Shown: positions 3,501-37,272 of the stretch, piece after piece
Layout of the letters: the number at the start of each line of letters is the position of its first letter
How positions within the stretch are numbered: position 1 is the first letter of the stretch
NCBI GenBank assembly: GCA_015075405.1
Contig: JABTUK010000001.1
Coordinates: 2,088,664 to 2,152,663 of the forward strand
DNA: 64,000 nucleotides
Source: Anaerolineales bacterium
GTDB taxonomy: Bacteria > Chloroflexota > Anaerolineae > 4572-78 > J111
Reading direction: 5' to 3'
Position numbers and translations under genes: made by a program
Notes under the pieces: generated by a model
Told to the model about the DNA's origin: nothing
What the model saw: only the letters and a program-made list of their open reading frames with translations
The model's database searches: none

Positions 3501-5063
3501 GTTGGGAATAGGGTTGTCAAGCGCTACGGCAGTTGAAGTTAATAGGGTAGAAATAAGGCTCAGATTGCCGCTTAAGGTCGGTGAGGCTTGCAGCATTAAG
3601 GCGACAACGCCGGCTACGTGAGGGGCAGCCATAGAGGTCCCACTTAAATAACCATAGGCTCCTCCCGGAAGGGTGGAACGTATCTCTTTGCCCGGGGCGG
3701 CAATTTCTGGCTTGATTTTGCCCCAGGGCGACGGTCCTCGACTGGAAAAAAGGGCGACCTGATCGTTGCTATCCGTTGCTCCTACCGCTAAAGCTATATT
3801 CAAACTGCCCGGCGACCCCACAGTGCCGGGGTCGGGGCCATTGTTGCCGGCGGCAAAAATAGGGTAAATGCCGGCGCTCAGCAAAGCCTGGATATCCGCT
3901 TGAAATTCGGTGCTGGCGCTGACATTACTGCTCCAGGAGTTATTAACCAGATTGGGGGCCAGGGCGGGGTTGCCGTTGGGGGCTAACATCCACTGGAAGG
4001 CGCTGTGCAGCCAGCTATCCAGCGCGCCGCCGCTGCTATCAAAGGCTTTAACGGCAATCCATTTGGCGCCGGGGGCCACACCGATGCCGTTATCACCCAC
4101 CATTGTGCCCATGGTGTGGCTGCCGTGCCCATTGCCGTCCACCGGATAGGTTGCGCCTTCGCCCGTAGCATCGAACCAATTGCCCAGGTGTTGGGGCAGT
4201 TTGCCGGGACCGGTATAGCCGCGATACTTTGTTTGCAGCGCCGGGTGCGCCCAATCTACGCCCGTATCAATGTTGGCAACCACCACCCCCGCTCCCGTAA
4301 TCCCTAGCGCCTGATGCACCAGATTTGCTCGAATTTTGACAATACCCCACTCGGGGGAGGATTGGAGGGTTGGAAGGTTAGAAGGTTGGAAGGTTAGAAG
4401 GTTGGAAAGGAGTGGAAGGTTAGAAGGTTGGAGGAATGGAACGGTAAAAATCCCACCTCCTCGCCTCCTCGCCTCCTCGTCTCCTCCAATCCTCACTTCT
4501 TTATCCAGCCGGACAATTTGCACGTCGGGGCGTGCGGCCAGGGTTAAGATTAGATCGAGCGAACCTTTAGCCGCCACAGCGTTGACAATCCACAAGGGAC
4601 GAATATCGGCGGCGGCGCTGATCTGCCCCTGACCGGTCAAAGAAGGGGCAGCCGGTGGACTGCTTAACGTTTGCAATACGCCGGCCTGGGTGTTGCGGGC
4701 TGTCTGCTGGAGGGCATTGACCACAGCCGTGCGTCTGAGCAATGGATCAGCAGCATTTTGCGCTCCTAAGGCTGAGGTTGCGGCCGCCAGATTGGTGGTG
4801 GTGTTGAGGTAAACAATAAAAGGAACCGGGGCTGTGTCGTTTTGCAGCAGCTTTTTGAGAAGCTGGGGTTCAATTTTGGTCAGCAGGGTCCGATCCAGCG
4901 AAGGCGGGAGGGCCGGTTCAGCCGCAGGAGCAGTGGGCAGGGGGTCCGAGTCTTTGGGGGGCAGCGAGTCTGGCTCCTGAGCGGAAGTGGGCCAGGCCAG
5001 TAAAACTGCCATGCTAAAAAACAGGACGAGGGAAAATAGAAGAACGGGAATTAGTCTGCGCAT
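546..5063 (-). CDS. Secreted subtilisin-like serine protease (S8) with C-terminal repeat domains
   Basis: A 1505-residue exported protease. An N-terminal signal peptide (about residues 1-29, hydrophobic core then PTSAQ) is followed by an inhibitor-like propeptide and an S8 catalytic domain. The triad is visible: Asp in ANIDTGVDWAHP (about 267), His in GNGHGSHTMG (about 314) and Ser in SGTSMAAPHVAG (about 474). Behind it come carboxypeptidase-regulatory-like beta modules (IQGAVTQAGFPIGGATI), two repeats beginning LLVD with W-Y-rich segments, and DUF11-like repeats near the C terminus. The last residues are LYLPIIRKK. Between propeptide and catalytic domain is a 46-codon low-complexity insert (see 4357-4494). 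Probably degrades extracellular protein; the natural substrate cannot be read from sequence. Confidence 0.93.
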   Translation of the reverse strand: MRRLIPVLLFSLVLFFSMAVLLAWPTSAQEPDSLPPKDSDPLPTAPAAEPALPPSLDRTLLTKIEPQLLKKLLQNDTAPVPFIVYLNTTTNLAAATSALGAQNAADPLLRRTAVVNALQQTARNTQAGVLQTLSSPPAAPSLTGQGQISAAADIRPLWIVNAVAAKGSLDLILTLAARPDVQIVRLDKEVRIGGDEEARRRGGGIFTVPFLQPSNLPLLSNLLTFQPSNLPTLQSSPEWGIVKIRANLVHQALGITGAGVVVANIDTGVDWAHPALQTKYRGYTGPGKLPQHLGNWFDATGEGATYPVDGNGHGSHTMGTMVGDNGIGVAPGAKWIAVKAFDSSGGALDSWLHSAFQWMLAPNGNPALAPNLVNNSWSSNVSASTEFQADIQALLSAGIYPIFAAGNNGPDPGTVGSPGSLNIALAVGATDSNDQVALFSSRGPSPWGKIKPEIAAPGKEIRSTLPGGAYGYLSGTSMAAPHVAGVVALMLQASPTLSGNLSLISTLLTSTAVALDNPIPNNNSGWGRIDAYNAVMAAGSFGTIQGAVTQAGFPIGGATIQITPHGGGPTIYATTAATGAYAQGLAPGVYDVTASAFGYNPVTEFGLTVVQGVPTVQNFNLTRQPTGALAGVVRETGTGLPLAASITIAGTPAQTTSGVNGSYSLSLPEGVGIYTATVVAAAHRITQVVGLTINDGGVTSQDFWLDPAPKILLVDSGPWYQESEIGYYQQALTDLRYPYDTWSITKPFVTPNDVPVTSTLTAYDVVIWSAPFDSPGYVGADAPLRGFLSQGGKLLLSGQDVAFFDGGGSIFGSAPYFRGYLKAQFLEENGEVFSATGVITGPFAGLSLTIAGGDGANNQTNPDVIENVNSDFARNLLTYGNDNRLAGVYTGLCVPYRVTFLPFGFEAINSRADRSQTLARTLDWLLQPPAPAGVEVTPAEQTVIGNFGAVASHTVRVRNIGAAPATFNLSLSSGTPHNWPVNPAPPPSLSLTSCQSQTITMGVQVNVSNSWHVSATRTLTVQAAGNPAISSTVTRTTKSPAPVLLVDDDRWYSFAAEYKSALEANQIPYDYWLVPKSWSGAAPPSPPLATLQMYPMTIWYTAYDWFQPLLTEEEDRLAAYLNGGGRLLLSSQDYIYGLPNHKPSAFAQNYLGVLAHIEDYSSTHFLGQPGSPVGTALGPYPLDFPLGYDNWTDALTPTASARIAGVGQEDQPNSLTNQGVGSGGRAWHTNFMAFGPEVTAPADRARLLQRSVGWLSWLGASTVTPNVSATTDGTDITYTAMLTNDGWNDLSTVAFTATFPAELTFVTASPEMSLVGGELIWSGPLARNTSKTLTYTASLANSLPLGARVNQVSWLAYPDHNLRFDRVAQVQVNFPQLSGSTFTVTPATGIVEGDVLTYTVILKNDGPVDDPLVTTTNTLPAVLEMVAIDPPSQGTLVSQGKSFTWTTPLAQNQTATLTYRALVSYTSSSIRNRVTIDDDLNDPLRLTAPAFFKVQTLYLPIIRKK
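4357..4494. repeat. Tandem-unit foldback inserted in frame in the protease gene
   Basis: A 138-bp block bounded by an exact 12-bp inverted repeat, GAGGATTGGAGG and CCTCCAATCCTC. Inside, one half repeats an 8-bp unit of type GGTTGGAA/GGTTAGAA and the other repeats TCCTCGCC. Its length is 46 codons, so the reading frame survives. It encodes the segment between LDKEVRI and PEWGIVKI, at the propeptide-catalytic domain junction. Confidence 0.75.
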
Positions 5064-30456: not shown

Positions 30457-30500
30457 CAGTAAAGTTATTTGCGACCCTGCTACTTCACCCCTTCGGGTGC
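30434..30500. repeat. Octanucleotide tandem foldback across the scaffold gene end
   Basis: GGTAGCAA is repeated about three times across the last codons and stop of the gene ending at 30456. The partial complement TTGCGACCCTGCTACTT follows. A second complement, GCGACCTTGCAACTTGCC, lies at about 30510-30530. The tail of the protein is therefore repeat-encoded. Confidence 0.65.
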
Positions 30501-30543
30501 GCCGAAGAGCGTGCGACCTTGCAACTTGCCTGGAGCTAAATTC

Positions 30544-31770
30544 ATGTTTGACGTTCAACGTATCCGCCAGGATTTTCCGATCTTGCAGCAGCAGGTTAAT
30601 GGAAAGCCCCTGGTTTATCTTGACAGCACGGCCAGTTCGCAAAAGCCGCTCTCGGTCATCGAGGCCATGAACACCTACTATCGTGAGTACAACGCCAATG
30701 TGCATCGCGGCATTTATCAAATCAGCGAGAAAGCCTCGGAGGCGTATGAGACGGCCCGCAAGAAAGTAGGCCGTTTTATCAATGCCCGCAGTTGGCGCGA
30801 GGTGATTTTTACCCGCAACGCCACCGAAAGTATTAATCTGGTGGCCTATAGTTGGGGGTTGAACAATATCAAAGCGGGGGATATTATCCTGACCAGCGAA
30901 ATGGAGCATCACGCCAATCTGGTGCCGTGGCAGCAGTTGGCCGCTCGAACCGGAGCCACCGTTAAATACATTCCGGTGGATGAGCATGGCTACCTGGATA
31001 TGGCCACCTTCGACGCCTGGCTGACCCCCCAAGTCAAGCTGGTCAGCATTACCCAGATGAGCAATGTGCTGGGGACGGTTACTCCTGTGGGTGAGATTGC
31101 GCAAAAAGCTCACGCCGTCGGCGCGCTGGTGCTACTGGATGGGGCGCAGGCGGTGCCTCACATGCCGACCGATGTCCAGGCGTTTGAATGCGATTTTCTG
31201 GCCTTTTCCGGCCACAAAATGTTGGGACCGACCGGCATCGGGGTGTTGTGGGGGCGCAAGGAGATTTTGGCCGACATGCCGCCTTTTATGACCGGCGGCG
31301 ATATGATCAAGAAAGTTACTTTTGAGGGCAGCACCTGGAATGAACTGCCCTGGAAATTCGAGGCCGGTACCCCGGCCATCGCCGAGGCGGTCGGTTTGGG
31401 GGCTGCGGTAGATTATTTGAATGAATTGGGCATGCGCAACGTGCGCCGCCACGAAATCGAATTGACGACTTACGCTTTTCACCGGCTCAGCCAGGTGGAA
31501 GGGATTCGCATTTATGGCCCACACGACCCGACGGCGCGGGGGGGCGCCGTCGCCTTTACCCTGGGCGATATTCATCCCCATGATATTGCCGCCGTGCTGG
31601 ATAGCGAGGGTATCTGTGTGCGAGCCGGGCATCACTGCGCCATGCCTTTGCACGACAAGTTGGGTCTTCAAGCGACGGCGCGGGCCAGTTTTTATGTGTA
31701 TAATCTGCCGGAGGAAGTGGATCGGTTGGCGGAGGGGTTGGATAAGGCCAGGGAGTTATTGGGAAGGTGA
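30544..31770 (+). CDS. sufS: Cysteine desulfurase SufS
   Basis: 408 residues from ATG 30544, preceded by GGAG; the open frame extends upstream through repeat sequence and is not used. PLP enzyme taking sulfur from cysteine as a persulfide. It has TEMEHH-like ILTSEMEHHANLVPW, the PLP Lys in FLAFSGHKMLGPTGIGVLW (about 225), TFEGSTWNELPWKFEAGTP, and the catalytic Cys in VRAGHHCAMPLH (about 365). Group II (SufS) type. Works with the IscU-like proteins on either side. Confidence 0.97.
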   Translation: MFDVQRIRQDFPILQQQVNGKPLVYLDSTASSQKPLSVIEAMNTYYREYNANVHRGIYQISEKASEAYETARKKVGRFINARSWREVIFTRNATESINLVAYSWGLNNIKAGDIILTSEMEHHANLVPWQQLAARTGATVKYIPVDEHGYLDMATFDAWLTPQVKLVSITQMSNVLGTVTPVGEIAQKAHAVGALVLLDGAQAVPHMPTDVQAFECDFLAFSGHKMLGPTGIGVLWGRKEILADMPPFMTGGDMIKKVTFEGSTWNELPWKFEAGTPAIAEAVGLGAAVDYLNELGMRNVRRHEIELTTYAFHRLSQVEGIRIYGPHDPTARGGAVAFTLGDIHPHDIAAVLDSEGICVRAGHHCAMPLHDKLGLQATARASFYVYNLPEEVDRLAEGLDKARELLGR

Positions 31771-31817
31771 GTTTACAAATAGAATGGGTGTAAAGTAGCG
31801 GTATTAAAGGGCGTTTC

Positions 31818-32126
31818 GTGTCATACACTATTGATTTTGAATCAGATGCCTGGCAAGACCTTAAACTACTTCGCAAGGGTGAACAAGTAAAAATCCTCAA
31901 GGCAATCGAGACGCACTTAAGTTATGATCCTACCCGACAGAGCAAAAGCCGGATTAAAAAATTGCGGCTTGGCAGCCAGCCGCCTTATCGGTTGAGAGTA
32001 GATGAATTTCGGGTTTTTTACGATGTAGAGCAGGAAGAGCAAAAAGTTATAATCTATGGCGTCGCTTATAAAGAACATGCGCTCGATTGGTTAGCCGATT
32101 TTGCTCAAAAGAGAGGCAATCTATGA
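31818..32126 (+). CDS. RelE/ParE-family toxin
   Basis: 102 residues from GTG 31818. The fold pattern is typical of RelE/ParE: DFESDAWQDLKLLRKGEQVK helix pair, then KKLRLGSQPPYRLRVDEFRVFYDVE with the basic strand, and VIIYGVAYKEHAL. RelE members cut mRNA on the ribosome, ParE members block gyrase; the basic residues do not decide which. The stop overlaps the next ATG (ATGA). The toxin gene comes first, the reverse of the common order. Confidence 0.85.
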   Translation: MSYTIDFESDAWQDLKLLRKGEQVKILKAIETHLSYDPTRQSKSRIKKLRLGSQPPYRLRVDEFRVFYDVEQEEQKVIIYGVAYKEHALDWLADFAQKRGNL

Positions 32127-32482
32127 AAACCGTTACAGTCAATGAACTTCATCAGCGCCTCGATGAATATTTAGTACAGGCACAAGTAGAAGAAATAGTA
32201 ATTAGGTTAAATAATGGAGAACTGTTGCGACTTTCGGCTATAAGTCCCGAAGATTTGGCGGATGAAGCACTGGAAAGTGACCCTCGCTTTGAGCAACTTA
32301 TTACTGAACGGCGCGAACGTTATAAACAAAGTGGCGGAGTCCCATTCACAACCGTTCGTCAAGTTTTGATTGACGAGTTGATCCAAAACCTTAACCATAC
32401 CGATCCTCAAGTGCGCCAGGAAGCAGCTAAATATTTAGCTGAGTTGGATCAAGTTGCGCCAAAAGTTGACCCCGGTGAGTAA
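32123..32482 (+). CDS. Antitoxin of the RelE-type pair
   Basis: 119 residues from ATG 32123, overlapping the toxin stop by 4 bp. The N terminus MKTVTVNELHQRLDEYLVQ and GELLRLSAISPEDL resemble Phd/YefM-type antitoxins, which bind DNA with this part and block the toxin with the C terminus. The C-terminal half has a HEAT-like stretch (DPQVRQEAAKYLAEL), longer than usual for the family. Only 5 bp separate it from sufU, so the pair appears to be embedded in the suf transcription unit. Confidence 0.75.
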   Translation: MKTVTVNELHQRLDEYLVQAQVEEIVIRLNNGELLRLSAISPEDLADEALESDPRFEQLITERRERYKQSGGVPFTTVRQVLIDELIQNLNHTDPQVRQEAAKYLAELDQVAPKVDPGE

Positions 32483-32487
32483 ACAAT

Positions 32488-32892
32488 ATGGACGACTTTT
32501 ATAAAGAAAACATTCTCGATCACTATCGCCACCCGCGCAATGCGGGCAAACTGGAGCATCCCACCCACTCGCACGAGGAGCACAATCCCCTGTGCGGCGA
32601 TGTGATTCGGATGGATTTGCGCGTGAACGAACAGAATATCATTGAGGAAGTTGCCTTTACCGGCAAAGGCTGTGCCATCAGCCAGGCCAGCGCCAGCATG
32701 CTCACCGAAATGATCCAGGGTAAATCGCTGGAGGAAGCGAAGCAGATTGGCAAAGAAGAGATTTTGGAAGCCCTGGGGATTGAAATTGGCCCGGTTCGCT
32801 TGAAGTGCGCGCTCCTGTCGCTCAAGGTGTTAAAGGCAGGAGCCTATGGTTTAAGCGAGGAAGATTGGAATACCGACGACGAAGAGTGGTAA
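32488..32892 (+). CDS. sufU: SufU-type Fe-S scaffold or sulfur-transfer protein
   Basis: 134 residues. Begins MDDFYKENILDHYRHPRNAG as SufU does. Metal and sulfur ligands are NPLCGD, GKGCAISQASASM and RLKCALLSLKVL. SufU binds zinc and accepts persulfide from SufS. The acidic C terminus (SEEDWNTDDEEW) is unusual for its length. Second IscU-like gene in the cluster, after sufS and the toxin-antitoxin pair. Confidence 0.92.
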   Translation: MDDFYKENILDHYRHPRNAGKLEHPTHSHEEHNPLCGDVIRMDLRVNEQNIIEEVAFTGKGCAISQASASMLTEMIQGKSLEEAKQIGKEEILEALGIEIGPVRLKCALLSLKVLKAGAYGLSEEDWNTDDEEW

Positions 32893-32925
32893 CGTACCGA
32901 TGACACAGAAGTTGATAGTGGACTT

Positions 32926-33588
32926 ATGGTAGACAAATTGCTGGACGCGCCTCAAACTAAAATCATAGATTATCTAGCATCGGATGGTGAGCCTATGGGT
33001 GAAACGGGTATCCACTCGCTCCGCATTCTTAATTCGCTAGGGGCATTGCGAGCTTGGTTTCGTCACCGTCCCGATGTCTACGTTGGGGCCAATATGTTTA
33101 TGTACTATACGGAGGCTCATCCGGCTGATGTCGTTGCCCCAGATTTATTTGTCGTTCTCGGTACGCGCAAAGAAGAAAGGCGCACCTGGAAAATTTGGGA
33201 GGAAGGTAAAGCGCCCGACTTTATCATCGAATTTACATCGGAAGCGACCAAAGGCAAAGATCGCTGGTTCAAACGGGGCTTGTACGAGGAATTGGGGGTG
33301 CAGGAGTATTTTCAATTTGATCCACTTCAGGATTATCTTAAGCCGCAACTGCAAGGATATTTTCTTGAAGGCAGCCAGTATCAACCCATTGAGCCGGAGT
33401 TTAGTGAAGAGGGGTATCTCCAGTTGAAAAGTCTGGTTTTGAACTTATACTTGAGAAACGAAGGCGACGATTTGAGATTTTATGAAGTTAAAAGTGGAGC
33501 CAAACTTCTGACTTTGGAAGAAGCCGAAGAAGAACTGGCTCGCCTGCGAGCCGAATACGAAAAACTTAAAAAACAATTGGGAGCATAA
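32926..33588 (+). CDS. Uma2-family (DUF820) putative nuclease
   Basis: 220 residues. The PD-(D/E)XK-like core is visible as VVAPDLFVVLG, then APDFIIEFTSEATKGKD, with YEELGVQEYFQFDP after it. A C-terminal coiled-coil (LEEAEEELARLRAEYEKL) follows, as in many Uma2 proteins. Uma2 genes are abundant in Cyanobacteria and Chloroflexota, but the biological role is unproven. No obvious link to the neighbouring Fe-S genes. Confidence 0.85.
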   Translation: MVDKLLDAPQTKIIDYLASDGEPMGETGIHSLRILNSLGALRAWFRHRPDVYVGANMFMYYTEAHPADVVAPDLFVVLGTRKEERRTWKIWEEGKAPDFIIEFTSEATKGKDRWFKRGLYEELGVQEYFQFDPLQDYLKPQLQGYFLEGSQYQPIEPEFSEEGYLQLKSLVLNLYLRNEGDDLRFYEVKSGAKLLTLEEAEEELARLRAEYEKLKKQLGA

Positions 33589-33597
33589 AATAAAACG

Positions 33598-33909
33598 ATG
33601 TCGAAGTTCGTCAAGGTAGCTAAAACTTCTGACCTTGCCCCCGGCGAAAAGATGCTGGTTGAATACGACGATGAAGATGTGGGTCTGTTTAACCTCGATG
33701 GTGAATTTTACGCTATTTCCGATGTTTGTACCCACGATGGCGGCCCACTGGTAGAGGGTCATCTGGAGGGCGAATGTATCATTTGTCCCCGGCACGGGGC
33801 CAGGTTCAACATCAAAACCGGCCAGCAAACCATGCCTGCTTTTTCGCCGGTGCCGTTGTATGAAGTAAAAATTGAAGGCGAGGATATTCTGATCGCGCCA
33901 AAAGAATAA
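33598..33909 (+). CDS. Rieske [2Fe-2S] ferredoxin
   Basis: 103 residues, one Rieske domain. Cluster ligands are C-x-H in VCTHDGGPLVEG and C-x2-H in CPRHGARFNI. No signal peptide or membrane segment, so a soluble electron carrier or nitrite-reductase-small-subunit-like protein. Position among suf genes suggests a client of, or electron supply for, the same system. Confidence 0.93.
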   Translation: MSKFVKVAKTSDLAPGEKMLVEYDDEDVGLFNLDGEFYAISDVCTHDGGPLVEGHLEGECIICPRHGARFNIKTGQQTMPAFSPVPLYEVKIEGEDILIAPKE

Positions 33910-33977
33910 AAAAGGTAGCAGGGTCGCAGGATGTACTACCCCTGTCTACTGTCTACCGTTTTTGAAGGAGAGAAATT

Positions 33978-34289
33978 ATGTCCGAAGAAATGAATGTTGC
34001 CCCGGTGACAGAAGAAGAAGTGCGCGAAGCGCTGCGCGGCGTGCTGGACCCTGAATTGCACCTGGATGTGGTCGCTTTAGGGTTGATTAGAAGCATTGAG
34101 TTGGACAGCACGCCGGTGTTGGTCAGAATGTTGCTGACCACGCCGTTTTGCCCCTACGGTCCCTGGTTGGTGCAGCAGGTCAAAGAAACTGCCGAAAAAG
34201 CGAGCGGGCGTGAAGCCAGGGTTGAAGTGCTGCCGGAGCAGTGGAACCCGGAAATGATGGAAGACCCGACGTTACTGGGGTTCTTTTGA
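33978..34289 (+). CDS. DUF59/MIP18-family Fe-S assembly protein
   Basis: 103 residues from ATG 33978 after GGAG. EEEVREALRGVLDPELHLDV and LGLIRSIELD mark the DUF59 domain, with a Cys in TTPFCPYGPW. Such proteins (SufT, PaaD, and the N-terminal part of Mrp) mature Fe-S proteins. Similar in sequence to residues 1-90 of the mrp product at 22993. The end is followed by a foldback repeat that closes the suf segment. Confidence 0.88.
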   Translation: MSEEMNVAPVTEEEVREALRGVLDPELHLDVVALGLIRSIELDSTPVLVRMLLTTPFCPYGPWLVQQVKETAEKASGREARVEVLPEQWNPEMMEDPTLLGFF

Positions 34290-34297
34290 TCGAAGAA

Positions 34298-34376
34298 CGG
34301 GAAGGTTGGAAGGCTGGAAGATTGGAGATAGAGGCTGTCCTCCAACCTTCCAGCTATCCAGTCTTCCGACCTTCCG
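34298..34376. repeat. Octanucleotide foldback after the DUF59 gene
   Basis: CGGGAAGGTTGGAAGGCTGG continues as a GGAAGGTT-type tandem; its counterpart CTCCAACCTTCCAG and further CTTCC units follow after a short loop. Same unit type as inside the protease gene (4357-4494). Confidence 0.75.
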
Positions 34377-34379
34377 AAT

Positions 34380-34408
34380 TTGACCAATCTGGGCCTGTCG
34401 GGTAAGAT
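34380..34408 (+). promoter_or_regulatory. Candidate promoter of the cysO leader
   Basis: TTGACC at 34380-34385 and TAAGAT at 34403-34408 with a 17-bp spacer. Transcription would start near 34415, about 325 bp before cysO. It would make an RNA with the upstream ORF and terminator described below. Confidence 0.5.
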
Positions 34409-34435
34409 ATGGCCCACTCAACTCGTCCAACGGAT

Positions 34436-34504
34436 ATGATAGCTGTGAACCTATTTCTCACTGTTTCAACTGAACTTTGCACATGTAGTAAGCGGGCACG
34501 GTAG
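34436..34504 (+). CDS. Upstream ORF with two Cys codons, candidate leader peptide of the cysO operon
   Basis: 22 codons from ATG 34436 to TAG 34502, beginning MIAVNLFLTV and ending TELCTCSKRAR. TGC is at 34478 and TGT at 34484. The pattern L-C-x-C-(S)-K resembles L-C-C-C-K in the ORF upstream of the rhodanese gene. There is no ribosome binding site, a weakness, though Cys-run leader ORFs known elsewhere are often leaderless. The ORF's 3' end overlaps the first arm of a hairpin (34492). Confidence 0.4.
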   Translation: MIAVNLFLTVSTELCTCSKRAR

Positions 34505-34674
34505 CCCCGTTCTCGGCGTTTGAGAGCGAGGGCTGCGGTAGCCCGCATCGCCGTGCAGCAACGACGATGAGACTCTCAACGAAATCTATTCCTGTCAAAC
34601 AAAAACCATAACCTTATAAAGTAGTTATTAAACTTGGCTCATCGTCTATTTATTAGCAGCGATGAGCCTTTTTT
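34492..34674 (+). promoter_or_regulatory. Structured leader, possible attenuator of the cysO operon
   Basis: A layered hairpin is visible: GCGGGC (34492) with GCCCGC (34541), AGCCC (34503) with GGGCT (34530), CGTTCTC (34508) with GAGAGCG (34522). Downstream, GACGATGAG (34563-34571) can pair perfectly over 9 bp with CTCATCGTC (34638-34646), which contains most of the first arm of the terminator. Forming that helix would prevent the terminator. TTGAGAG (34520) can also pair with CTCTCAA (34573). No known riboswitch consensus was recognised. Regulation by cysteine through the upstream ORF is inference. Confidence 0.5.
34636..34674 (+). terminator. T-tailed terminator upstream of cysO
   Basis: GGCTCATCG and CGATGAGCC form a 9-bp perfect stem followed by TTTTTT. 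It lies 67 bp before the cysO ATG, after the candidate promoter, and no promoter is clear between it and the gene. This makes it a candidate attenuator rather than only the end of an upstream unit. Confidence 0.85.
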
Positions 34675-34741
34675 ATTTGTATCTGTCTACAAAATCCGAG
34701 TGTCTGAATAAATTCCAATAAAGGAGAAAAATTACCTGACT

Positions 34742-35017
34742 ATGACAACTGTACGAATTCCCAGCCCCCTGCGACGCTACACCAACGGCCAAAGTAAAGT
34801 CGAAGGCAGTGGGGCGACTGTTCGTGAATTGATTGGCAATTTAGAGACGCAATACCCCGGCATCCAATCGCGCCTGTGTGAAGCCGACGGTCAAATTAAA
34901 CGTTACGTCAATGTGTTTGTCAACGAGGAAGAAATCCGCACGCTGCAAGGGGCCGACACCCCCGTAGCGGACAGAGATGAGGTCTCGATTATTCCCGCGA
35001 TGGCGGGCGGCCGCTAA
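34742..35017 (+). CDS. cysO: CysO-like (ThiS/MoaD family) sulfur carrier protein
   Basis: 91 residues, ubiquitin-like fold. TTVRIPSPLRRYTNGQSKVE, then VRELIGNLETQYPGIQSRLC and the end VSIIPAMAGGR. CysO of actinobacteria ends in AVAGG; its C-terminal Gly becomes a thiocarboxylate that supplies sulfur to CysM for cysteine synthesis. Here an extra Arg follows Gly-Gly, so it may need trimming first. The next genes encode a MoeZ-like activator and a CysM-like synthase, supporting this assignment. Preceded by AAAGGAG. Confidence 0.85.
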   Translation: MTTVRIPSPLRRYTNGQSKVEGSGATVRELIGNLETQYPGIQSRLCEADGQIKRYVNVFVNEEEIRTLQGADTPVADRDEVSIIPAMAGGR

Positions 35018-35032
35018 CGGCAGGGGGATACC

Positions 35033-36253
35033 ATGAGTTACGTTACCAGCGATCAATTGATCGCCAAGCTCAGAAAAGAAATCAAAGAGATTGACGCCCA
35101 CGAATTGGCCCGGCGCATGCAAAGCGACGAGGATTTAACCGTGATTGACGTGCGTGAATTGGACGAATGGAGCCAGGGCCGCATCAAAGGCTCGGTCCAT
35201 ATTCCGCGCGGCTTTTTGGAACTGCGGGTCGAAGCCCTGGTTCCACAGCGCGACCAGTTCATCGCTGTGACCTGCGCCGGCGGTACCCGCAGCCTCTTGG
35301 CCGCGCGTGATTTACAGGAGTTGGGCTACACCAATGTGGTTTCGGTGGCGGGCGGCTTCAACGGCTGGAAAAATGCCGGCTATCCTTTCTCCAAGCCCCA
35401 AATTCTCAATGAAGACCAGCGCCATCGCTACAGCCGCCATACCATTATGCCTGAAGTGGGCGAGGAAGGGCAGTTGCAACTGCTGGGGGCCAGCGTGCTA
35501 CTCATCGGCGCGGGTGGGCTGGGCAGTCCGGCGGCCATTTATTTGGCGGCGGCCGGTGTGGGCAAAATCGGGATTGTGGATTTCGACGTGGTAGACACCA
35601 GCAACTTGCAGCGCCAGATTGTTCATCGCCTGGAAGATGTGGACAAGCCCAAAGTCGAATCGGCGGCCCGGACCATCGCTCAACTGAACCCCGATGTCAA
35701 AGTCATCGGCCACCAGACCCAGTTGACCAGCCACAACGCGCTCGACATCATCAGCCAGTATGATGTGGTCATCAACGGCTCCGATAACTTCCCCACCCGC
35801 TACCTGGTCAACGATGCCTGTGTGCTGCTGGGCAAAAAGTTGGTGGATGGCAGCATCTTCCGCTTTGAAGGCCAGGTGACGGTTTACGACACGGCCAACG
35901 GCAGCCCTTGCTATCGCTGCCTCTACCCCGACCCACCCCCTCCCGGCGAGGTGCCAAGCTGCGCCGAAGGCGGCGTGCTGGGCGTCCTGCCTGGGATCAT
36001 TGGCAGTGTGGAAGCAGTCGAAGCCATCAAGTTGATTCTGGGCATTGGCAGCCCGCTGACCGGCCGTTTGCTGCTCTACGATGCGCTGGAAGCCGAATTC
36101 CGAGAAGTTAGAGTCCGCAAGAACCCGGATTGCCCGGTTTGCGGTGAGCACCCGACTGTGACCCAGTTGATTGATTATGAGCAGTTCTGCGGTATTCCCC
36201 ACGCTGCGCCAGTCAATGTCAATGGCGTCGGTCAGCCGGTGTTAGTCAGTTGA
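35033..36253 (+). CDS. moeZ: Rhodanese-adenylyltransferase fusion (MoeZ/MoeB-like) activating the sulfur carrier
   Basis: 406 residues. N-terminal rhodanese domain (about 15-125) with Cys81 in AVTCAGGTRSLL; then a ThiF/MoeB adenylation domain with the nucleotide loop LLIGAGGLGSPAAIYLA, the conserved R-Q in NLQRQIVHRLEDV, zinc cysteines CYRCLYPDPP and CPVCGEH, and a catalytic Cys in EVPSCAEGG. It would adenylate the carrier C terminus and add sulfur. Most MoeZ proteins have the rhodanese domain at the C terminus; here it is at the N terminus. Starts 15 bp after cysO. Confidence 0.92.
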   Translation: MSYVTSDQLIAKLRKEIKEIDAHELARRMQSDEDLTVIDVRELDEWSQGRIKGSVHIPRGFLELRVEALVPQRDQFIAVTCAGGTRSLLAARDLQELGYTNVVSVAGGFNGWKNAGYPFSKPQILNEDQRHRYSRHTIMPEVGEEGQLQLLGASVLLIGAGGLGSPAAIYLAAAGVGKIGIVDFDVVDTSNLQRQIVHRLEDVDKPKVESAARTIAQLNPDVKVIGHQTQLTSHNALDIISQYDVVINGSDNFPTRYLVNDACVLLGKKLVDGSIFRFEGQVTVYDTANGSPCYRCLYPDPPPPGEVPSCAEGGVLGVLPGIIGSVEAVEAIKLILGIGSPLTGRLLLYDALEAEFREVRVRKNPDCPVCGEHPTVTQLIDYEQFCGIPHAAPVNVNGVGQPVLVS

Positions 36254-36300: not shown

Positions 36301-37272
36301 ATGACCCTTTTAGATACCCTTGAAAAACCCAAAACAATCAATCCCGTTTTTGTCACCCGGCGGCCGCCCCATTTAGGCGAAAGTTTGCTGTCGCGGATTG
36401 GCAACACCCCGCTGCTGCCGCTGCATCGCCTGGCGGCTGCCGCCGGGGTTGACCCTAACGTGGTAGTTTTTGCCAAAGCGGAATGGTTCAACGCCAGCGG
36501 CTCGGTCAAAGCGCGACCGGCCCTCTTTATGATTGAGGAAGGGGAACGCAGCGGCCTGCTCACCCCCGACAAAACCATTATTGACGCCACCTCCGGCAAC
36601 ACCGGCATTGCCCTGGCCATGATTGGCGCGGTCAAAGGTTACAAAGTCAAATTGGTTATGCCGGCCAATGTCAGCAGCGAGCGCAAAAATATTCTTAAGG
36701 CTTACGGAGCGGAACTGGTTCTGACCGACCCCCTGGAAGGGATTGACCTGTCCATTCGCACCGCCCGGCAACTGGCCACGGAAAACCCCGACCTCTACTT
36801 CCGGCCCGACCAGTACAACAATCCGGTCAACTGGCAGGCTCACTACCAGACCACCGGCGTGGAAATCTGGGATCAAACCGGCGGAGCGGTGACTCACTTT
36901 GTGGCCGGCATTGGCACCAGCGGCACGTTGATGGGCACGGGTCGCCGCCTGAAGGATTTTAACCCCCAGGTTGAAGTGATAGCGGTAGAACCGGCGGATG
37001 AATTAGCCATTATCGAGGGCCTCAAGCACATGGAAACCAGCATCGTCCCCGGCATTTACGACCCGGATTTTGCCGACCGCAACATCGCCGTTTATCCCAA
37101 CGACGCCCATGAGTTGGCTCGCCGGCTGGCCCTGGAAGAAGGCATGTTCGTCGGCTATTCCGCCGGAGCGGCGGCCTGGGCAGCTTTGCAAGTAGCCAAA
37201 ACCCTCACTCACGGCGTTGTCGTCACCGTTTTCCCAGATGGCGGGGAGAAGTATTTGAGCGTTGCGGGTTAA
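36301..37272 (+). CDS. cysM: Cysteine synthase of the CysM type
   Basis: 323 residues. PLP fold-type II: the cofactor Lys70 in FNASGSVKARPALF, the loop ATSGNTGIALAMIGA, and the glycine loop AGIGTSGTLMGTG. Sequence flow (TIIDATSGNTG, IVPGIYDPDFADR) follows mycobacterial CysM, which uses O-phosphoserine and CysO thiocarboxylate. From memory, the Arg important for phosphoserine binding follows the E-P of a late motif; here the sequence is VEPADEL, so the acceptor substrate is uncertain. Third gene of the carrier operon. Confidence 0.9.
   Translation: MTLLDTLEKPKTINPVFVTRRPPHLGESLLSRIGNTPLLPLHRLAAAAGVDPNVVVFAKAEWFNASGSVKARPALFMIEEGERSGLLTPDKTIIDATSGNTGIALAMIGAVKGYKVKLVMPANVSSERKNILKAYGAELVLTDPLEGIDLSIRTARQLATENPDLYFRPDQYNNPVNWQAHYQTTGVEIWDQTGGAVTHFVAGIGTSGTLMGTGRRLKDFNPQVEVIAVEPADELAIIEGLKHMETSIVPGIYDPDFADRNIAVYPNDAHELARRLALEEGMFVGYSAGAAAWAALQVAKTLTHGVVVTVFPDGGEKYLSVAG

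Follow-up and report, generated by a model that had tools for sequence, protein, structure and literature searches.

The window, by which we mean the whole stretch of 64,000 nucleotides that was analyzed, contains three consecutive genes related to cysteine or sulfur metabolism, preceded by a leader with a short open reading frame (ORF), two predicted hairpins (P1 and P2) and an intrinsic terminator (Table 1). All of the leader parts that a sequence-only reading of this DNA had named were found at their positions, base for base; its description of the downstream genes as a cysteine-making pathway was supported by the Pfam and NCBIfam matches. For the cysO-like gene, no NCBIfam model scored above its cut-off. 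On the 5΄ side of the leader, at 30469-34289, Pfam matches indicated an Fe-S assembly gene set comprising a class-V aminotransferase (SufS-like), a NifU-type scaffold, a Rieske protein and an FeS_assembly_P protein.

Table 1. Features of the leader and the genes downstream of it in the window
Feature	Positions	Strand	Basis and remarks
Sigma-70-like promoter, TTGACC-17-TAAGAT	34380..34408	+	Consensus scan; TTGACC 34380-34385, TAAGAT 34403-34408
Leader ORF, 22 codons, MIAVNLFLTVSTELCTCSKRAR and stop	34436..34504	+	ATG 34436, TAG 34502-34504; putative translation
Putative regulatory Cys codons, TGC (34478) and TGT (34484)	34478..34486	+	Sequence
Predicted hairpin P1	34492..34546	+	First arm extends over the end of the ORF (last codons and stop)
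Predicted hairpin P2 (ATCG..CGAT)	34547..34568	+	Masks part of GACGATGAG
Putative antiterminator strand GACGATGAG	34563..34571	+	Pairs with CTCATCGTC at 34638-34646
ACTCTC	34572..34577	+	May pair with GAGAGC (34522-34527) once P1 is blocked; from the fold predicted for a ribosome at the stop
Intrinsic terminator GGCTCATCG..CGATGAGCC with six T	34636..34674	+	Sequence and fold; second arm and six T 34660-34674
cysO-like sulfur carrier, ThiS family	34742..35017	+	Pfam PF02597, E 1.2e-16; named from its neighbors
moeZ/moeB-like adenylyltransferase with rhodanese domain	35033..36253	+	Pfam PF00899 and PF00581; NCBIfam NF006444 MoeB above cut-off
cysM-like cysteine synthase	36301..37272	+	NCBIfam TIGR01136 cysKM above cut-off; TIGR01138 cysM below (375.7 vs 394.2)

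The promoter-like site would place the transcription start at about 34415. In 1.4 kb the scan returned two such sites, compared with 1.0 expected by shuffling, and was thus at chance level by itself, but TTGAC-spacer-GTAAGAT or GTATGAT recurs 5΄ of 8 of the 13 leaders identified within the order. The ORF has an alternative start (GTG at 34445); in the window, as had been remarked from the sequence, no ribosome binding site can be clearly made out for it. Its two Cys codons, the overlap of its end with the first arm of P1, the perfect complementarity of GACGATGAG to 34638-34646 and the position of the six-T terminator, 67 bp before cysO, all agreed with the sequence-only reading. That reading had added that a strong promoter behind the terminator would make the latter irrelevant; the consensus scan found no promoter-like site between the terminator and cysO. 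A simple terminator scan listed no site; the scan is limited to loops of 8 bases, and the loop here has 15. The predicted folds of 34478-34680 (z = –4.65, 0 of 200 shuffles) and of 34415-34741 (z = –3.80, 0 of 100 shuffles) lay below those of shuffled sequences.

No Rfam family matched the window at its gathering score, and none of the 12 matches obtained for 34300-34760 at E values up to 10 reached its gathering score, so that by Rfam match the leader belongs to no known riboswitch or T-box family. The miRNA-like matches below threshold correspond to a purine-rich hairpin at 34300-34376. Purine-rich GGAAGGTTGGAAGG repeats are found at this place and at 4364-4434 of the window, and the copy at 34300 could form a long imperfect hairpin with a CCAACCTTCC partner, directly 5΄ of the promoter.

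A DNA search of 61 genomes detected the leader in 8, including the genome of the window, and a covariance model built from these 8 leaders was used on the genomes of the family, the order and the class; most of the genomes surveyed are incomplete. With this model, the leader and its ORF were found in 8 of the 12 family genomes and in 11 of the 25 order genomes, and the 4 family genomes that yielded no match are 55–90% complete. At E ≤ 0.01, matches were obtained in 19 of 396 class genomes. Eight of the matched genomes lie beyond the order; four of their matches were judged to be real (L105, L107, L108 and L110), three were rejected as chance on reading (L103, L106 and L109) and one (L104) is possible. 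At L104, on the minus strand at about 1500-1615, possible in-frame C-S-C-S-K-R codons, the frame being set by eye, precede a GCGGGC..GCCCGC pairing, and an NMT1-type substrate-binding protein is encoded downstream; this arrangement suggests possible cysteine control of a sulfonate-type transporter. A separate pattern scan of genome contigs returned 73 stretches, 10 of which were assigned: six lie in members of the order (L036, L037, L046, L075, L077 and L083), and four (L058, L062, L069 and L091) were read as chance.

A count anchored on the gene is free of any search pattern. A cysO match of some kind was present in 18 of the 25 order genomes, and only the 11 matches with E < 1e-30 were taken. 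In all 11 of these genomes, an ORF with a run of Cys codons was found upstream of cysO, within 420 nt in 10 genomes and about 515 nt upstream in the remaining one (G010). Two of these leaders (L200 and L202, both ending in RAP before the stop) had been missed by the covariance model. In all 13 order-level leaders (11 found by the model, together with L200 and L202), positions –24 and –18 relative to the stop are occupied by Cys codons, which answers the question of Cys codon conservation on which the sequence-only reading had made its proposal depend. The in-frame Cys runs vary from 2 to 5 codons and keep their register with P1 in all 13 leaders; the tails of the 11 model-found leaders include LCTC, NCCTC, VCCCTC, ICCCICC, TCCCTC, KCVC and ICCTC, and the site of the Cys codons of the window is occupied in relatives by CCTC, CCCTC, CCCICC and similar sequences.

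Six further loci with cysK-like genes (L244-L249) were examined, and a Cys leader was found at four of them, including one each in the genome of the window and in its sister genome (L245), with none seen at L246 and L248. In these four leaders a Cys codon starts 8 nt before the foot of the hairpin, which is the exact spacing that was sought. The second Cys leader of the window's genome (L244, on G000:C4), which encodes MCCCSCLLRRWGIHQ followed by a stop, ends 246 nt upstream of a cysteine synthase match at 322604, and a terminator-like hairpin with T5 lies between the two.

We evaluated the predicted pairings across the 13 order-level sequences by shuffling the sequences and by sliding the pairing partners. 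In P1, 90.8% of the cells were paired, compared with 36.5–53.9% for slid partners, and the covariation score (0.304) exceeded the mean of shuffled alignments (0.234) and all slid versions (≤ 0.155), with 0 of 500 shuffles as high. The number of P1 pairs changed on both sides was not exceptional; there were four, a number matched or exceeded by 41 of 500 shuffles and by two slid versions (5 and 6). In P2, 84.6% of the cells were paired, compared with 8.3–71.8% for slid partners; three pairs were changed on both sides, and each pair was broken in one to three of the 13 sequences. At least five T follow the terminator stem in 12 of the 13 leaders, the exception being L100. For the GAGAGC:ACTCTC lock predicted in the stop state, no covariation support was found in the relatives.

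For the window, 1 of 500 shuffles gave a match at least as good as that between GACGATGAG and the first arm of the terminator; over 15 leaders, the anchors of which were chosen by eye, 40 of 7500 did so. In family f3, this pairing covaries, appearing as GGATGAGCC/GGCTCATCC and as GATGGGTC/GGCCCATC. Both results support the earlier claim that antiterminator and terminator exclude each other, and the loss of this pairing in relatives, which had been named as grounds for giving up the proposal, was not observed.

We then computed the effect of ribosome position on folding. The leading edge of the ribosome was assumed to lie 12 nt past the start of the A-site codon. The Cys codon at –24 in the A site then places the edge at –12; P1 begins at –10 and would therefore stay free. 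A ribosome stalled at Cys –18 would reach about five bases into P1, and one at the stop, with its edge at +12, would cover the first arm of P1. The proposal that a ribosome stalled at the Cys codons would cover this arm is thus not supported in the form in which it was made. From the stalled to the stop state, the difference in free energy between the antiterminator and terminator forms increased by 3.1–17.6 kcal/mol, that is, toward the terminator, in all 12 order-level leaders used (L100 was left out), and, when the 24-nt P1 segment was shuffled, a shift as large arose in 9 of 240 cases. The sign of the difference changed in 7 of the 12 leaders; the antiterminator was favored in both states in L003, and the terminator in both states in L001 (the window), L098, L099 and L202. 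Without a ribosome, the terminator was favored in all 12. In the blocked folding, which had been suggested as a check, the computed shift from stall to stop runs opposite to the step that the sequence-only reading had proposed.

All folding was performed at equilibrium. In the window, the difference was +4.8 kcal/mol in the stalled state and +9.3 kcal/mol at the stop, a shift of 4.5 kcal/mol without a change of sign, and the equilibrium probability of the terminator was 0.99 in both states. Because the terminator is the favored equilibrium form whether the ribosome is stalled or at the stop, a switch in the window would have to be kinetic. Before the second arm of the terminator has emerged, the probability of the antiterminator was 0.99 with a stalled ribosome, 0.49 with a ribosome at the stop and 0.99 without a ribosome. 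The computed direction varies with the assumed footprint: when only a 30-nt footprint was blocked, it held in 12, 11 and 8 of the 12 leaders for the stop versus Cys –24 and in 10, 11 and 8 for the stop versus Cys –18, at edges of +10, +13 and +16, respectively, where +13 corresponds to the main assumption made above.

To survey the class, the search pattern TGYNNNTGYNNNNNGCGRGNNCGNTAR was run on 396 class genomes, with the reversed pattern as a control. The pattern occurred at 70 places in 68 genomes, compared with 31 places for the control, and the unit of ORF and hairpin was kept at 50 of the 70 places, in 16 families; L121 was set aside (contig end), and 19 places were dropped (long frames or no sulfur gene). 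This survey is biased, because the pattern forces the spacing from CxC to the stop as well as an R-x-R ending, and the 50 leaders were kept by eye with the downstream gene as part of the judgement. Outside the class, the pattern occurred at 8 places in 8 of 345 genomes, compared with 37 for the control; therefore, no enrichment was found there. A peptide role for the R-G/A-R ending was considered and dropped, because the pattern forces this ending and leaders found through their genes end in RAP or RGS or run on. We also examined 24 class genomes without a pattern match, from families without a kept leader; 23 had a cysteine synthase match, and 29 of the 30 loci returned were inspected. At 8 of the 29 loci (7 genomes), a short ORF that carries CxC or CC toward its end was judged to be leader-like. 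A T5 run lay within 250 nt of the match at 8 of 8 leader-like loci and at 1 of 21 others, where leader-likeness was judged by eye with the T5 column in view.

Among the 50 kept leaders, P1 duplex energies ranged from –18.7 to –34.9 kcal/mol in all 50, as calculated by a finder that always returns some duplex. The P1 arms of a leader paired better with each other than the mean of pairings across families in 44 of 50 leaders, and no better in 6 (four f46 leaders, L133 and L170); their own value was reached by 109 of 10000 shuffles in two-base blocks. Folding was computed for 49 leaders; L132 was excluded, as the script found no terminator, and for L111 the hairpin used by the script differs from that used in the antiterminator shuffle test. 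Between stall and stop, the probability of the terminator increased by over 0.2 in 22 of the 49 leaders and decreased as much in none, compared with a rise of this size in 32 of 588 shuffles of the P1 segment. The other 27 leaders, including all eight of f13, five of f35 and three of f33, stayed within 0.2 at equilibrium. The second arm of P1 overlaps the first arm of the terminator in f37 (8/8), f35 (5/5), f46 (3/4), f33 (2/3) and f48 (1/2); in these families, therefore, P1 itself would be the read-through form, that is, the antiterminator.

Pfam analysis of 19 proteins encoded behind kept class leaders showed 12 PALP domains (cysteine synthase type), 3 rhodanese domains, 3 DUF4395 domains and 1 sulfite/nitrite reductase; sulfur-related domains were thus present in 16 of the 19 representatives, and DUF4395, whose function is unknown, in 3. 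The DUF4395 genes lie behind the Cys leaders at L123, L144 and L146 (families f33 and f56). At L154, the stretch examined contained no gene of 90 aa. A gene for a Prok-JAB protease lies behind the cysteine synthase gene at L166:2673-2999, and L172 and L178 are alike judging by the start of the sequence only; the arrangement is similar to the Mec+/CysO/CysM pathway of mycobacteria.

The leader combines repeated Cys codons, downstream genes of the same pathway and a terminator with a mutually exclusive antiterminator. With its parts, their conservation, the statistical support for P1 and the antiterminator pairing in relatives and the downstream gene families established, we predict that 34415-34741 is very probably a ribosome-mediated transcription attenuator, one that likely senses charged Cys-tRNA. 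When cysteine is plentiful, the ribosome would reach the stop codon and cover the first arm of P1; the freed second arm of P1 and P2 would then hold GACGATGAG, the terminator would form and transcription would end before cysO. When cysteine is short, the ribosome would stall with a Cys codon in the A site, just short of P1; P1 would form, and GACGATGAG would capture the first arm of the terminator, so that cysO-moeZ-cysM would be transcribed. Without a ribosome, the terminator would be the favored fold. Read-through in the window would depend on the antiterminator forming first; elsewhere in the class, the role of antiterminator would fall to P1 itself in several families.

The sequence-only reading had the stalled ribosome cover the first arm of P1; in this version, P1 would be disrupted by the stall and GACGATGAG thereby freed. 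The five or so P1 bases covered at Cys –18 would fit this order of events, as would the finding that, in several leaders including that of the window, the antiterminator is about as favorable at Cys –18 as at Cys –24. However, the upper part of P1 still folds at Cys –18 in 10 of 11 leaders, and the much larger part of P1 that is covered when the ribosome is at the stop goes with a shift toward the terminator in every leader computed. Because of the blocked folding, and because of the arm overlap between P1 and the terminator in the five families named above, this step is most likely reversed, and we regard the version in which P1 is disrupted by the stall as unlikely. A metabolite-binding riboswitch, whose aptamer for a sulfur compound would consist of P1 and P2 and in which the ORF would play no part, might be suspected from the high sequence conservation of P1 and P2 in the family (8 leaders; mean column identity 83%) and from the terminator that follows. 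Such an aptamer is very improbable, given that no Rfam family reached threshold, that the register between Cys run and P1 is kept whatever the length of the run and that the ORF and P1 recur beyond the order with different sequence between them.

A Cys-responsive system is described for mycobacteria in the available text of PMC9031893, and by analogy a stall in the present ORF might open the ribosome binding site of cysO, the hairpin being no terminator in vivo. We attach little credence to a translational attenuator of this type: the six-T terminator stands 67 bp upstream of cysO, the T run after the stem is kept in nearly all order-level leaders, and the AAAGGAG before cysO falls outside the predicted switch. 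The adjoining Fe-S assembly gene raises the question of whether the hairpin merely terminates that gene and the Cys ORF arose by chance. This is extremely improbable, as a promoter-like site that recurs in relatives lies between the gene and the leader, and as Cys leaders also precede cysM-, cysK-, rhodanese- and DUF4395-type genes elsewhere.

The transcription attenuator proposed here is of a known kind; what is new is the phylum, the layout with a hairpin over the stop codon and the class-wide spread. The trp and his leader-peptide attenuators consist of codons for the amino acid of the pathway in a short ORF, alternative hairpins and an intrinsic terminator ahead of biosynthetic genes, all of which have counterparts in the present leader. 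Unlike these, the window leader would be specific for cysteine, has a stop codon that forms part of the first arm of P1, the switch hairpin, and would use a separate distal antiterminator strand as a signal relay. As far as the accessible portions of PMC8632094 describe it, the uORFC-8-2 motif upstream of cysS in Rhodobacterales combines an intrinsic terminator with a uORF in which two Cys codons are conserved, as here, and read-through upon Cys-tRNA shortage was proposed. In that motif, however, the Cys codons are in tandem within the first stem and cysS is the only gene, whereas the window has C-x-C 5΄ of P1, genes that make cysteine or move sulfur and a host of another phylum, and its leader thus falls outside the motif.

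The polycysteine leaderless ORFs of mycobacteria (Canestrari 2020) are characterized, in the parts of PMC9031893 and PMC13236596 available, as Cys-responsive translational attenuators; they share with the present leader an ORF with Cys codons before cysteine genes and, as proposed here, ribosome speed as the sensor. They are described as translational and leaderless, and the type lacks a conserved terminator hairpin between ORF and gene, whereas the window has an intrinsic terminator with a conserved alternative pairing. The ATG of the window's ORF lies about 20 nt past the transcription start expected from the promoter-like site. The short ORFs of actinobacterial cys leader peptides, which precede cys operons or cbs, likewise carry runs of Cys codons close to the stop, but according to the available part of PMC1262725 conserved terminator hairpins were not found in the mycobacterial ones. 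Our search of full-text literature, based on listings and the beginnings of abstracts with sparse coverage of subscription journals, returned no leader-peptide attenuator from Chloroflexi or Anaerolineae, and the word Chloroflexi does not occur in the available main text of PMC2965389.

Taken across the class, the leaders probably represent a cysteine attenuator regulon of Anaerolineae with a C-x-C-x-x-R sensor, the last codons of which form the first arm of P1, and at least two outputs: P1 may serve directly as the antiterminator, in several families, or may steer a relay antiterminator, in the order of the window. The genes under such control would be those for cysteine synthase, CysO, rhodanese, DUF4395 and sulfite reductase, and possibly a sulfonate-type transporter. 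If this is true, Chloroflexota would gain a cysteine regulon that can be read from sequence, in which termination modules vary while the sensor stays the same: a Cys codon that starts 8 nt ahead of a hairpin over the end of the ORF. DUF4395 and rhodanese proteins, whose roles are unclear, would be linked to cysteine supply, and the position of DUF4395 genes behind Cys leaders would tie this domain to the supply of cysteine or sulfur.
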